Below, in pieces: positions 10,526 through 45,480 of a stretch of DNA of 64,000 nt. Origin of the DNA: Lacinutrix sp. WUR7 (lineage in GTDB: Bacteria; Bacteroidota; Bacteroidia; Flavobacteriales; Flavobacteriaceae); the NCBI RefSeq assembly GCF_016864015.1, contig NZ_CP045067.1, positions 2,738,001 through 2,802,000 of the forward strand, given 5' to 3'. Below the pieces are notes generated by a model. The model did no database searches. It was not told the origin of the DNA and saw nothing but the letters and a program-made list of their open reading frames with translations. Within the stretch, counting starts at the first letter, position 1. Every line of letters begins with the position of its first letter. Position numbers and translations under genes: made by a program.

Positions 10526-11230
10526 TTAGTTTAATGACAGAAACAATAACCCTGTTAGTATAGCAATACCAAAACTAATAAGCGTTCCAATTAATATGTA
10601 TTCGGTAAGTTTTCGGTGTTTCGATTCTTTTAAATCACCAAATCTAAAAACAGATTTTGCAGTGATTAAAAAACCAACAGCTTCCCAATGTCCAACAACA
10701 ACAAAAATAAAGACTAAAAGACGTTCTAAGATCCCAATGTATTTTCCTGCATCTTTAAGGGATTCATTATTTTCTGTAAGTTTCGAAATATTCCATTTTG
10801 TGAAAATGGTTTTCATGATGATAGAAACCGGTTGCGTTAAAAATGCCAAACAGGTTAATAAAAGTAAATTTTCTTCCGTAAAAAGCGCTTTAAAATCTAT
10901 TGCTGTATTGGTATATATATAATAGGTTATTAGAATTACTAGTATATGAAGTGCTTGATCTATAAAAAAGAGTAAGCGTTTTGTTTTTTTCTTTTGAATT
11001 TGAAGCTTAATAGCATCTATAATAAAGTGTGAAACACCAATTAGCAGTACTACTGGCCAAAGAGAAAGATCCCAAAGGATTACGAGTAATAATATAATAT
11101 GAATTAATATATGAAAATATAATTTTGGAGATTTTAACTTTTTGCGCTCTTTATCTTTAACCCATTTTTGTGGTTGTAAAAAGAAATCACCAATGATGTG
11201 TGCTAATAAAAGTTTAATAAGTAGTATCAT
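10526..11230 (-). CDS. DUF3307 membrane protein
   Basis: A 234-aa protein with about six hydrophobic segments. The N-terminus LLLAHIIGDFFLQPQKWVKDK with HIIGDFFLQ is the DUF3307 hallmark, followed by HILIHIILLL and GVSHFIIDAIK. The molecular role is unknown. Its start overlaps the end of satD by 4 nt, so the two are translationally coupled; this gene pair is common in several phyla and suggests one functional unit. Confidence 0.85.
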   Translation of the reverse strand: MILLIKLLLAHIIGDFFLQPQKWVKDKERKKLKSPKLYFHILIHIILLLVILWDLSLWPVVLLIGVSHFIIDAIKLQIQKKKTKRLLFFIDQALHILVILITYYIYTNTAIDFKALFTEENLLLLTCLAFLTQPVSIIMKTIFTKWNISKLTENNESLKDAGKYIGILERLLVFIFVVVGHWEAVGFLITAKSVFRFGDLKESKHRKLTEYILIGTLISFGIAILTGLLFLSLN

Positions 11231-11841
11231 ATTAAGATGCTTATTTTTTTCTTATACATGTTGTTTAAAGCTAAAATTTCATCCAGATTCGCACGTTTTA
11301 TACGTTTACTAATAGCATTTTGATTAGTACCTATTAATTTTGCTAAATCTTCTTGTAATGCTTTAGGGTTTTCTAAAGTTAATTTAACAATTTCTGCCGA
11401 ATTAACTGTCCAATGATCCATACTAATTAATGCTAGTTTGAAATATAGATTCAACTCGTCATTAAGTATTTGTGATTTCGTTTTTATTTTTAGGTTTTGT
11501 TTTTCCTTTTTTAAAGTCTCAAAAGTTTCCCCTGAAAATATAAAAGCTTCTCCATTAGATTCTGTAACATCTTTGCCTTGATATGTTTTTTCGCCAATAC
11601 CAATAGCCAACCTAACATCTAATCCTTTTATCATTTTTATTGCTGCTTTTATATAAATAGCAGCTTCAAAACTTTTGGTGATGTCTTTAATTTCAATTTG
11701 AAAACTGTCTCCACGATAAATTTCCCATAGTGTATTGTCTGTTTCTAAATACGATAGAGCAGCTTTTAAATGGCTAAGCCAAATCTCTGGATTTTTTTGT
11801 CCGCGGGATTTGATAATATCTCCTGTTATTATGCTTGTCAT
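11227..11841 (-). CDS. SatD family protein with C-terminal HTH
   Basis: A 204-aa protein. The N-terminal part (TSIITGDIIKSRG, LWEIYRGDSFQIEI, LDVRLAIGIGEK, ESNGEAFIFSGETFE) is the SatD signature and recalls a nucleotide-cyclase-like fold. The C-terminus (LENPKALQEDLAKLIGTNQNAISKRIKRANLDEI) is a helix-turn-helix of the sigma-like type, so it may bind DNA. It is the first gene of an operon with DUF3307. The promoter lies inside an array of six dyads; auto-regulation by this HTH is a direct hypothesis. Confidence 0.85.
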   Translation of the reverse strand: MTSIITGDIIKSRGQKNPEIWLSHLKAALSYLETDNTLWEIYRGDSFQIEIKDITKSFEAAIYIKAAIKMIKGLDVRLAIGIGEKTYQGKDVTESNGEAFIFSGETFETLKKEKQNLKIKTKSQILNDELNLYFKLALISMDHWTVNSAEIVKLTLENPKALQEDLAKLIGTNQNAISKRIKRANLDEILALNNMYKKKISILI

Positions 11842-11853
11842 TCGTTTTGATTT

Positions 11854-12015
11854 TTATCATATTTTTAAATGATAATTATATTTATCGCTTAATTTAGTGA
11901 TAAATATAATTATCACTTTATTGCGTGATAATCAAATATATTCCTTTTTTATGGAATAATCAAGTTTATTCCTTTAAAAGGGAATATTTTTATTTATTCC
12001 TTAATAGTGGAATAA
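11854..12015. promoter_or_regulatory. Array of six dyad operators, exact 28-bp period
   Basis: Six 22-bp dyads (7-bp arm, 8-bp centre, 7-bp arm) start at 11854, 11882, 11910, 11938, 11966 and 11994, with 6 bp between neighbours. Units 1-3 have arms TTATCAC-type/GTGATAA-type; units 4-6 have arms TTATTCC-type/GGAATAA-type. A decayed seventh right arm GGAGTAT is at 12037-12043, in phase. The array fills the space before satD and overlaps its predicted promoter. Confidence 0.85.
11933..11963 (-). promoter_or_regulatory. satD promoter inside the operator array
   Basis: On the minus strand, TTG (11963-11961), 20-nt spacer, TATATTTG (11940-11933): both elements at consensus. The -7 element spans the gap between units 3 and 4 and the start point (about 11926) falls in unit 3, so proteins bound to units 3 and 4 would block RNA polymerase. 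Confidence 0.7.
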
Positions 12016-12057
12016 TCATGAATATGTAGTTTGTAGGGAGTATTAATAGGAATAAAA

Positions 12058-12621
12058 CTAACTAGAAAAGTGATCTGGTAAATCAATGCGAACACGATGA
12101 TCTTTTAATTCATTGAAATAGTTTTCCAAAGAAAAGTCTACATGATTAAACTCTTCTTGTCTTGCTCTGTGGTTTTCGTTACGATTTATTGCTTTTAAAA
12201 AACGAACTACTTCTTTTTTATCATTTAATATTAAACCGGGAACAATTACCGATTTGCCTGCATCGTCTTTAGCAACCATTGTAAAATAAGAAGAATTACA
12301 ATGTTTGGTTTCACCAGTTCTAATATTTTCTGCTTCTACACGAATACCAACAACCATAGAGGTGCTACCAACATAATTAACAGAGGCTTTCATAGTTACA
12401 AGATCGCCAATTTCTATCGGACTTAAAAAATCGACCGTATTTACAGAAGCAGTAACACAATAGGTTTCCGAATGTTTGGAACCACAAGCAAAAGCGATTT
12501 CATCCATTAAACTTAAAATATAACCACCATGAATTTTTCCACCAAAATTGGAGTGGGATGGTTGCATGAGTAATGATATACTTATACGAGAAGAATCTAC
12601 AGTTTTAAATTTTAGTTTCAT
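12058..12621 (-). CDS. Acyl-CoA thioesterase, hotdog fold
   Basis: A 187-aa hotdog-fold thioesterase that hydrolyses acyl-CoA to the acid and CoA. Family marks are NFGGKIHGGYILSLMDEIAFACGS with the helix-borne acid (MDE), VTASVNTVDFLSPIEIGD, and VGIRVEAENIRTGE. They match YciA/BFIT-type cytoplasmic enzymes. The last ~50 residues are an extra acidic-basic tail. It is followed by the 121-aa gene upstream on the same strand with one base between them, so they are co-transcribed. Confidence 0.88.
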   Translation of the reverse strand: MKLKFKTVDSSRISISLLMQPSHSNFGGKIHGGYILSLMDEIAFACGSKHSETYCVTASVNTVDFLSPIEIGDLVTMKASVNYVGSTSMVVGIRVEAENIRTGETKHCNSSYFTMVAKDDAGKSVIVPGLILNDKKEVVRFLKAINRNENHRARQEEFNHVDFSLENYFNELKDHRVRIDLPDHFSS

Positions 12622-27120: not shown

Positions 27121-27300
27121 CTATGAAACTTCTATAACGAGCATTCGATACCTAATGGAATGACTATTAAAGAAGCAACATGTGACCAATAAAAAACAAA
27201 TAATATATACACATGAACCTTCCATACCGAGCATTCGATACCTAATGGAATGACTATTAAAGAAGCAACATGTGACCAATAAAAAACAAATAATATATAC
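27121..27300 (+). repeat. Tandem 90-bp duplication of a gene leader
   Basis: Copies 27121-27210 and 27211-27300 differ only in their first ~18 bases; the remaining ~70 bp are identical. Each copy runs from an ATGAA through CGAGCATTCG, a potential hairpin CATTC/GAATG, to the A-rich ribosome-binding region ATATATACACATGAA. The second copy places this region at the start of the lipoprotein gene at 27303. Short frames start at each internal ATG and stop after 4 and 10 codons. Confidence 0.9.
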
Positions 27301-27302
27301 AC

Positions 27303-27845
27303 ATGAAAACATCAATCAAAACAATATTGTTCAGCTTACTAATAGTTACTCTGTTAGTAAGTTGTAACAATAAAGAATCTTTACAAACGTACTTTGTAGA
27401 TAATCAAGAAACCGCAAGTTTTACAACTGTAGATATACCTACAAGTATTGTGGACTTTGAAAATGCAGATCTTTCTGAAGACGAAAAAGACGCATATAAC
27501 TCTATAAATAAGCTGAATTTTTTAGGCTTTAAATTAGACAGTACCAATCAAGAAACCTATACCATAGAAAAGGCTAAGATAGCTTCTATTTTAAAAGATG
27601 AAAGATATATTGAGCTAGGTGATTTTAATATGTTTGGTTCTAAAATATCTGTAAAATATATAGGAGATAATGATCTTGCTAATGAGTTTATAGTCTTTGG
27701 AAGTTCTAAAGAATATGGTTTTGGTGTTTTACGTGTTTTAGGAAACGATATGAGTCCGGCAAAACTAGTAAGACTTGCAGAATCTATGAATAAAGGAAAA
27801 GTAGATGACACACAATTAAAAGGGTTATTGGAGTTTTTTAAATAA
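27303..27845 (+). CDS. DUF4252 lipoprotein (second copy)
   Basis: A 180-aa lipoprotein: signal peptide with lipobox LVSC (Cys about residue 21). The body (SLQTYFVDNQETASFTTVDIPTSIVDF, LNFLGFKLDSTNQETY) fits DUF4252 and is paralogous in layout to the preceding gene. It is the last gene of the ECF operon and is closed by a strong terminator. Confidence 0.8.
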   Translation: MKTSIKTILFSLLIVTLLVSCNNKESLQTYFVDNQETASFTTVDIPTSIVDFENADLSEDEKDAYNSINKLNFLGFKLDSTNQETYTIEKAKIASILKDERYIELGDFNMFGSKISVKYIGDNDLANEFIVFGSSKEYGFGVLRVLGNDMSPAKLVRLAESMNKGKVDDTQLKGLLEFFK

Positions 27846-43487: not shown

Positions 43488-44117
43488 GTTTCTAGAATTA
43501 TTTAGAATTATAAAATAGCTTCGCCTTTTAGGTCAAACTCTCCAACTTTATTCTAATTATACTAACTAAGTAGCTCTCCTCTTATTTTTAAGAGGAGAAT
43601 GAATTTAAATGCTTTTCGCATTTGAAGAAAGAGGAGTTAATAAAATAGGGTTTGGGGTATAAAAACAGCTTCGCATTTTATGTCAAACTCTCCGGATTTA
43701 TTTGCAATAAATCCACCTCTCTTTAACTAAAGAGAGGAGCAGGTTCTTTATTCTAATTTTACTAGCTAAGTAGCTCTCCTCTTATTTTAAGAGGAGAATG
43801 AATTTAAATGCTTATGCATTTGAAGAAAGAGGAGTTAATAAAATAGGGTTAGAATATAAAAATAGCTTCGCATTTTAGGTCAAACTCTCCGGATTTATTT
43901 GCAATAAATCCACCTCTCTTTAGCTAAAGAGAGGAGCAGGTCCTTTATTCTAATTTTACTAACTAAGTAGCTCTCCTCTTATTTTAAGAGGAGAATGAAT
44001 TTAAATGCTTTTTTGCATTTGAAGAAAGAGGAGTTAATAAAAAGGGTTTGGATGTAAAAATAGCTTCGCATTTTAGGTCAAACTCTCCAACTTTATTGTA
44101 TTTATACTAACTAAGTA

Positions 44118-44703
44118 GCTCTCCTCTTAAGTTTAAGAGGAGAATGAATTTTTATTTCCCAAAAAGGAAATGAAAAGAAAGAGGAGTTTGTGAGTATTAT
44201 AAAAAATGACTTTCAATTTCCATAAAAATAGAAGATAGATTGTCAAATACCATTCTGTTTTCAAACCTAATTACTTTGTAATTTAGGCTTTCTAAATATT
44301 TTGTTCTCTCATTATCTTTCTCCATTTGTAAAGCATTATTATGAACTTCTCCATCTAATTCAATGATTAATTTAAGTTCTGCACAATAAAAATCAACAAT
44401 ATAATAACCAATACTATGTTGTTTTGTAAAACGTTTGTTTTTGAATTTTCTAGCTTTTAATTGATTCCATAAATACGCTTCAGCAGGAGTTAACCTTTGT
44501 CTTAAGGTAGTTCTTAATTCTTGGAGTTCTTTTTTAGTATGAATTTTATTTTTATTCATTGTTTGAAGTTAAATATTTATCTTTAATTCTACAACAAAAA
44601 ATATATTGGTAAAAGTGGTTTAAAAATCGTTTCTCTCTTTTTATGTCAAACTCTCCGAATTTATTTTCAATAAATCTACCTCTCTTTAGCTAAAGCGAGG
44701 AGC
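44118..44703. mobile_element. Long palindromic element carrying a DUF559 gene
   Basis: This copy begins with the same left hairpin as its neighbours (44118-44150) and ends with the same right hairpins (44645-44703), but 420 extra bp with a DUF559 gene lie between. The ends GCTCTCCTCTT and AAGCGAGGAGC are imperfect inverted repeats. The short units are what remains if the gene is removed from this copy, which suggests an autonomous element and its derivatives. Its stem sequences also differ slightly from the short units (ATTTCC/GGAAAT in place of AAATGC/GCATTT). Confidence 0.6.
44197..44559 (-). CDS. DUF559 nuclease-like protein
   Basis: A 120-aa protein of the DUF559 family, related to Vsr and other PD-(D/E)XK-type nucleases. 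The order is LRQRLTPAEAYLWNQLKARKF, KRFTKQHSIGYYIVDFYCAELKLIIELDGEVH with acidic residues Asp (VDFYC) and Glu/Asp (IELDGEVH), then ERTKYLESLNYKVIRFEN. These fit an intact active site. It lies inside the long palindromic element, on the opposite strand to trmH. Cutting or nicking of the element's hairpins is a testable idea, not shown. Confidence 0.88.
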   Translation of the reverse strand: MNKNKIHTKKELQELRTTLRQRLTPAEAYLWNQLKARKFKNKRFTKQHSIGYYIVDFYCAELKLIIELDGEVHNNALQMEKDNERTKYLESLNYKVIRFENRMVFDNLSSIFMEIESHFL

Positions 44704-45480
44704 AGGTTCTTTATTCTAATTCTACTAACTAAATAGCTCTCCTCTTATTTTAAGAGGAGAATGAATTTAAATGCTTTTCGCATTTGAAGAAAGAGGAGTT
44801 AATAAAAAGGGTTTGGGGTATAAAAACAGCTTCGCATTTTAGGTCAAACTCTCCGGATTTCTTTTCAATAAATCCACCTCTCTTTAGCTAAAGAGAGGAG
44901 CAGGTTCTTTATTGTAATTATACTAACTAAGTAGCTCTTCTCTTATTTTAAGAGGAGAATGAATTTAAATGCTTTTTTGCATTTGAAGAAAGAGGAGTTA
45001 ATAAAACAGGGTTAGGATATAAAAATAGCTTCGCATTTTAGGTCAAACTCTCCGGATTTCTTTTCAATAAATCCACCTCTCTTTAGCTAAAGAGAGGAGC
45101 AGGTTCTTTATTGTAATTATACTAACTAAGTAGCTCTTCTCTTATTTTAAGAGGAGAATGAATTTAAATGCTTTTTTGCATTTGAAGAAAGAGGAGTTAA
45201 TAAAACAGGGTTAGGTTATAAAAATAGCTTCGCATTTTAGGTCAAACTCTCCGGATTTATTTGCAATAAATCCACCTCTCTTTAGCTAAAGAGAGGAGCA
45301 GGTTCTTTATTGTATTTATACTAACTAAGTAGCTCTCCTCTTATTTTAAGAGGAGAATGAATTTAAATGCTTTTTTGCATTTGAAGAAAGAGGAGTTAAT
45401 AAAATGGGGTTAGGATATAAAAACAGCTTCGCATTTTAGGTCAAACTCTATAGATTTAGCAGCAAGTTCAGGACAAAAAA

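Follow-up and report, generated by a model that had tools for sequence, protein, structure and literature searches.

In the LacI family, regulators bind palindromic sites at their own promoters, and a family survey reports autoregulation in 72% (PMC4052901). For the MerR family, the Prot-DNA-Korr study describes protein columns that are correlated with columns of the binding sites (PMC5045206). Streptococcal satD is reported to be associated with acid tolerance and essentiality (PMC11323703). Here we describe an array of dyads in front of satD in a 64,000-nucleotide stretch of the Lacinutrix sp. WUR7 genome (contig NZ_CP045067.1, forward-strand positions 2,738,001 to 2,802,000; this whole stretch is referred to as the window). 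Judged from sequence comparison, the array is probably an operator on which SatD assembles as a chain of dimers and thereby autoregulates a satD–DUF3307 operon. Similar to LacI-type autoregulated local repressors, the palindromic sites lie at the gene's own promoter; in contrast to that family, satD arrays have two to six sites spaced at 28 bp, the sequence of which is far more changeable than their geometry. The logic of the analysis is that of the MerR and Prot-DNA-Korr studies, but SatD is an unstudied family with seemingly one target locus, and the whole array changes together. Among the open-access papers listed by searches on SatD and DUF3307, none was found to describe DNA binding by SatD or an operator array in this family.

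The array is located between satD and the thioesterase gene 5′ of it (12058-12621, minus strand). As the initial annotation had claimed, it comprises six dyads of 7-8-7 bp with a period of exactly 28 bp (Table 1). Summed over the six units, 39 of 42 arm positions are complementary, compared with 28 for the best arrangement elsewhere in the window (periods 22-40, loop 8). A decayed seventh dyad, claimed to start at 12022, is complementary at just 3 of 7 positions and was not counted. The core half-sites are hexamers of the form TATNNN/NNNATA with gaps of 8 bp both within and between dyads, so that half-sites follow each other at 14-bp steps and alternate in orientation. Dyads with a 6-bp centre, noted earlier between neighbouring arms, are real, but they are secondary to this simpler lattice of hexamers spaced 8 bp apart both ways. 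Two kinds of dyads are present: toward satD, three TTCC-type dyads (11938-12015) come first, followed by three TCAC/TCAT-type dyads (11854-11931).

The same array was looked for in front of satD in related genomes. SatD was identified in 223 of 397 genomes of the family, and upstream DNA was examined for 90 of these (L001-L030 and L060-L119); together with 29 loci from the GTDB collection, whose species partly overlap, this gave 119 loci, reduced to 109 after removal of near-identical proteins. Across the phylum, 98 of 395 searched genomes had a SatD, and 52 further dereplicated loci were taken from this set (12 from the same family and 40 from outside). A scan over periods, made without any assumed sequence, peaked at 28 bp, with 16.6 of 21 pairs complementary compared with 12.2 in shuffles (loop 8, 109 loci). 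Scored with a hexamer caller (fixed 28-bp period, TAT-based half-sites), 107 of the 109 family loci exceeded the 99% null derived from mononucleotide shuffles. An array of this geometry is shared by nearly all dereplicated relatives, contrary to the condition (absence from related species) under which the initial annotation would have been refuted, and the controls were negative both inside satD and further upstream (0/161 each). On the additional loci the caller passed 11 of 12 from the same family and 15 of 40 from outside, that is, 118/121 and 15/40 overall; being blind to 29-bp and non-TAT arrays, it undercounts outside the family. We also applied a sequence-free test with two scores at periods of 27, 28, and 29 bp; for a locus to pass, one of these had to reach p ≤ 0.01 (100 shuffles). 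It was passed by 9 of 12 same-family loci, 29 of 40 outside loci (one of them, L164, only at 27 bp), and a Pseudoalteromonas locus, amounting to 39/53, of which up to about three may be due to chance. Certain lineages outside the family have dyads separated by 9 bp (period 29), with the gap within dyads still 8 bp; a fixed inner gap beside a variable outer one suggests that the binding unit is the convergent dyad. The Pseudoalteromonas locus (L194, 2930-2980), from a Gammaproteobacterium, carries a pair of TGTAAC dyads at 28-bp spacing in front of a satD of approximately 26% identity, which is followed by a DUF3307 gene, and the satD–DUF3307 module may reach beyond Bacteroidota.

Two loci depart from the common layout. 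In L162, seven TATAAG hexamers extend from -248 to -74 upstream of a distant satD in exact 29-bp steps, five of them with an exact CTTATA partner, which suggests a recent expansion of the unit. In L150, three dyads are located about 300 bp from satD (the first at -297), and no array is present in the 170 bp adjoining the gene.

The protein that binds the array was sought through residue–base co-variation. In the AlphaFold2 model of SatD, the C-terminal helix-turn-helix (HTH) is formed by helices 163-170 and 174-183, and residues 174-179 read Q-N-A-I-S-K. The inner triplet NNN of the TAT-NNN half-sites differs widely between species, yet SatD and its array remain together. Co-variation was calculated for the 127 of 161 loci in which two or more units formed a clear array, and identity of the N-terminal domain (N-domain) was controlled for. 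The partial correlation with half-site similarity was 0.596 for SatD column 179, 0.302 for column 176, and 0.255 for column 175, whereas no column exceeded 0.154 in 200 permutations. These top three of 193 variable columns all fall in the predicted recognition helix, and the best of 206 columns in the DUF3307 protein reached 0.19 (124 of the 127 loci). When the calculation had first been made within the family, on 106 of 109 loci (three with weak arrays, L015, L074, and L089, being omitted), the values were 0.70 at column 179, 0.28 at 175, 0.22 at 167, and 0.20 at 176.

The correspondence can be read as a natural recognition code, in which 34 types of recognition helix are paired with 20 forms of the half-site triplet and the geometry stays almost constant. 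Aspartate or glutamate at 175 with A176 and K179 is paired with TTCC or TGCC (30/30); N-A at 175-176, if residue 179 is T, S, N, or M, with TCAC (18/18); N-T-E, with TCGT (6/7); S-S-E-R, with TCGG (7/7); A-A-R, with TTAC (8/8, with Q174); and G-N-Q, with TTAG (9/13; the remaining four have TAAT, TTAA, and, twice, TTAT). Residue 174 is glutamine in 153 of 161 SatD proteins and pairs with A at base 2, and R174 pairs with G at the same base in two lineages, one including L140 and L149 (TGTTAC) and the other the Pseudoalteromonas locus (TGTAAC). The pattern is retained between distant proteins. Among pairs with less than 50% N-domain identity, the whole triplet is shared by 81% of 16 pairs having the same residues at 175, 176, and 179, compared with 2% of 3954 pairs having different ones; below 65% identity, the values are 62% of 259 and 6% of 6609. 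A tree of the N-domain alone requires no fewer than 41 changes of the triplet and 33 of residue 179. Because residues and bases co-vary in this manner, SatD itself very probably binds the array.

The -7 box of flavobacterial sigma-A promoters is TAnnTTTG according to one study (PMC9723704). When every TAnnTTTG is counted, such a box is present at phase 18 of the 28-bp unit in 66 of 127 arrays, and at each of the remaining 27 phases in 1.2 arrays on average. Overlap of its TA with the half-site aids the agreement in phase but leaves the TTTG unexplained. We take TTG to be the -33 element, as assigned in Table 1. A TTG lies 19-21 bp ahead of the box in 47 of the 66 arrays with a phase-18 box; among the 55 arrays with TTG 18-22 bp ahead of any TAnnTTTG, the spacer is 20 bp in 49 and the array phase is the same in 48. 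Co-variation with the HTH and the promoter register indirectly indicate an autoregulated operator array, with a regulator's candidate sites at its own promoter.

Exact TATTCC dyads occur four times in the Lacinutrix genome, three of them in the satD array and one inside a 302-amino-acid open reading frame (ORF). The TATCAC dyad occurs exactly once, in the satD array, and 13 times at up to one mismatch compared with 8 for the control pattern. Among the listed matches to these two types, the only ones searched, no neighbouring dyads (up to one mismatch) were found elsewhere in the genome, and the satD locus seems to be the single main target of SatD.

We propose that each 28-bp unit would present two head-to-head hexamers, with TAT outside and NNN inside, to one SatD dimer, and that two to six dimers would sit side by side on an array. 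The recognition helix would read the hexamers through residue 174 at base 2 and through residues 175, 176, and 179 at bases 4-6. Cooperative, filament-like binding fits the fixed lattice. Half-sites 14 bp apart would be separated by 1.33 turns (at 10.5 bp per turn), or 120 degrees, so that three units would span eight turns; from this geometry we argue that a helical coat winding round the DNA suits better than stacking on one face. The predicted sigma-A promoter of satD–DUF3307 appears to be built on the same measure (TTG at -33, 20 bp, TAnnTTTG), with 28 bp from TTTG to TTTG. Since the promoter matches the array unit, an occupied unit would cover it and cause autorepression. Repression rather than activation is a further step of inference beyond binding. 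Expression of satD–DUF3307 might be held low until a nucleotide signal alters the N-domain of SatD, which probably senses or makes a nucleotide that would release or reshape the SatD chain. The helix and its sites could drift together because SatD seemingly has one main target locus.

The proposed role of the N-domain is based on its predicted fold. The AlphaFold2 model of SatD has a predicted local distance difference test (pLDDT) score of 96.6, and its top Foldseek matches are adenylyl cyclase Ma1120, GGDEF, GTP cyclohydrolase III, and Cmr2/Cas10. The top 20 have probabilities of 0.85-1.00 (1.00 for the first twelve) with individually weak E values of 1.3e-3 to 1.1e-2, and template modelling (TM) scores by query length of just 0.34-0.45. 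Palm enzymes are described as having one acidic residue in strand 1 and another in the hairpin that follows strand 2 (PMC2904730). In SatD, D8 of strand 1 is conserved in 159 of 161 proteins and D45 of the strand 2-3 hairpin in 160 of 161, both positions being located from the secondary structure of the model, without superposition on a solved structure. The N-domain is therefore predicted to have a palm/ferredoxin-like, nucleotidyl cyclase-like fold with both expected acidic residues. SatD thus resembles palm-fold nucleotidyl cyclases and polymerases in its fold matches and its two aspartate positions, and adds a C-terminal HTH. Of 67 aligned SatD proteins, 54 match the PF16264 profile at E ≤ 1 (best 2.8e-11), the SatD family that includes Streptococcus satD, implicated in secretion and acid tolerance; different from these relatives, the window protein has no match at E up to 10, nor was a match found in its own genome. 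Lrp/AsnC regulators consist of an AsnC-type HTH and a RAM effector domain. We considered SatD as a member of this group and rejected the assignment: its AsnC HTH match (E 0.021) falls below the cut-off, no effector-domain match is listed, and the fold at the place of the effector domain resembles cyclases.

The DUF3307 gene is presumed to be the operon partner of satD and a regulated gene. A DUF3307-like ORF follows satD at 152 of 161 loci under a loose length and motif rule, and 40 aligned sequences contain invariant histidine and aspartate residues. The fold was uninformative (model pLDDT 84.5, predicted TM-score 0.62, best PDB match at E 1.1). Neither SatD nor DUF3307 matched the PADLOC library of defence systems at E up to 0.001, and no SatD match was found in phage records. 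SatD matches in plasmid records came from two Pseudoalteromonas replicons (1.24 and 1.32 Mb) and had approximately 26% identity.

The SatD of the window carries N175 and K179. Of eight loci with an N175-K179 helix, seven have a TTCC majority; the eighth, recognized from its unit list as the window, is mixed. Close relatives L033 and L003, with T179, keep TCAC dyads and have fewer intact TTCC dyads; L002, with K179, has three TTCC dyads and a TCAC unit reduced to a decayed remnant (by eye); and L031 and L032 have K179 and mixed arrays like the window. SatD of L031 is 96.6% identical to the window protein, and its -7 box lies 63 bp from the ATG rather than 91 bp, exactly 28 bp less. On comparison of these sequences, the window looks caught between two specificities, with a switch in progress through whole-unit turnover and change of residue 179 that could run in either direction. 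Such apparent intermediates in living relatives (the window, L031, L032, L033, L003, and L002) make the path testable. Units of a foreign type were present in 10 of 124 arrays scored, at the distal end in seven, at the proximal end in two, and on neither side in one. A polarity rule for array turnover was considered and rejected, the cases being too few and the window itself one of the two proximal ones.

Several observations weigh against SatD acting as an autorepressor on this array. Taken one by one, just 72 of 109 loci beat all 50 dinucleotide shuffles of themselves, and outside the family 11 of 40 loci have no array in the sequence-free test, of whose 39 passes up to about three may be due to chance. 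Two further R174 proteins (L187 and L188) stand without a TGT array. Tree-based tests on independent pairs lacked power, with one to five pairs per test on supported branches; none of these pairs was in the wrong direction. The window SatD has K179, which belongs to the TTCC code, yet half of its dyads are TCAC-type. At up to one mismatch, TATTCC dyads number 35 in the genome compared with 11 for a control pattern, and isolated further sites are possible. No in-phase TAnnTTTG is present in 61 of 127 arrays, and in six of the 66 in-phase arrays the -7 box is one unit past the last dyad, an arrangement that suits an activator equally well. SatD might accordingly bind as an activator or dual regulator, in which case a dimer chain adjoining the -33 element would recruit RNA polymerase and proximal dyads would tune the output; in these six arrays the dyads abut the -33 element, which agrees with this. 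In the other 60, though, the most downstream in-phase -7 box is inside the dyad run and the -33 and -7 elements have a dyad between them, which favours blocking, and we regard activation as possible but unlikely.

Since the promoter of the window encloses dyad 3, dyads 4-6 would be transcribed, and three dyads downstream of a predicted promoter, with arms that stay complementary as the sequence changes, might suggest RNA stem-loops in the satD leader that serve attenuation, processing, or protein binding. G-U pairs, however, make up 63 of 339 arm mismatches (19%, compared with 17% expected from 2 of 12 types), leaving 276 others, and are exceeded by C-A/A-C (97), as expected for double-stranded DNA sites. 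In addition, the six arrays with the promoter beyond the last dyad would not be transcribed from it, and base identity tracks HTH residues, which makes RNA stems very improbable. The initial annotation had offered both a regulator array with regular packing, which our results support, and a chromosomal partition-like or iteron array bound in the manner of parS or by Rep. Regular packing on a fixed lattice would suit the latter as well, but the array precedes satD in 107 of 109 relatives whose upstream genes differ (by eye) and its half-sites track SatD residues; the genome is a single 3.99 Mb contig, and no ParA, ParB, or Rep Pfam match was found in SatD, DUF3307, and four neighbours, the only part of the window scanned. 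We consider a partition role next to inconceivable. That a different, unlinked regulator binds the array, its specificity sharing the phylogeny of SatD by chance, might account for the ten arrays with units foreign to their SatD class; with ancestry controlled, the three best of the variable SatD columns nevertheless fall in the recognition helix, and no comparable signal is seen in the adjacent protein, so that we give this explanation very little credence. Neutral tandem duplication of a functionless AT-rich unit would explain the whole-unit copy change among close relatives, in which the -7 box lies 91, 63, and 91 bp from the ATG in L001, L031, and L032, respectively. It explains neither a geometry kept across the phylum despite sequence change nor the promoter register, and its probability appears negligible. 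Autoregulation by SatD accordingly remains the reading that we consider probable.

If so, the array would assign a probable DNA-binding role and an operator to a widespread but little-studied protein family, and would bear on the long-standing question of how control is maintained when a regulator changes along with its sites. A broader picture, which we put forward as speculation and think rather doubtful as a whole, is that SatD is a nucleotide-making or -sensing helical coat on a ruler-like array, that satD–DUF3307 is a membrane effector module controlled by a nucleotide signal, perhaps in stress or phage defence, and that repeated, matched code switching is kept in mixed arrays. The last part, if true, would leave a readable record of regulator–operator evolution across the phylum.

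Table 1. Features of the satD locus, with coordinates in the window (dyads numbered from the end distant from satD).
Feature	Position	Strand	Basis or remark
satD, 204 amino acids; predicted N-terminal cyclase/palm-like domain (about residues 1-120) and C-terminal HTH	11227..11841	-	ORF, AlphaFold2 model, fold matches
DUF3307 membrane protein gene, 4-bp overlap with the satD stop	10526..11230	-	PF11750, E 4.6e-32
Dyad 1, TTCC type, most distant from satD	11994..12015	-	7/7 complementary
Dyad 2, TTCC type	11966..11987	-	6/7 complementary; core hexamers fully symmetric
Dyad 3, TTCC type, between the predicted -33 and -7 elements	11938..11959	-	6/7 complementary; core hexamers fully symmetric; promoter register
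Dyad 4, TCAC type	11910..11931	-	7/7 complementary
Dyad 5, TCAC type, one arm altered to TCGC	11882..11903	-	6/7 complementary
Dyad 6, TCAT variant, closest to satD	11854..11875	-	7/7 complementary
Predicted -7 element TATATTTG (TAnnTTTG), in array register, 91 bp before the satD ATG	11933..11940	-	phase 18 of 28
Predicted -33 element (TTG), separated from the -7 element by 20 bp	11961..11963	-	sequence reading; 20-bp spacer common to 49/55 arrays

Other repeats are present in the window. Tandem blocks of a 197-199-bp unit, palindrome-rich by eye, extend over 43546-44088 and 44639-45449 (2.7 and 4.1 copies, respectively) and flank a 120-amino-acid ORF on the minus strand at 44197-44559. A 90-bp unit is repeated 2.1 times with 95% match at 27123-27308, between ORFs of 197 and 180 amino acids.
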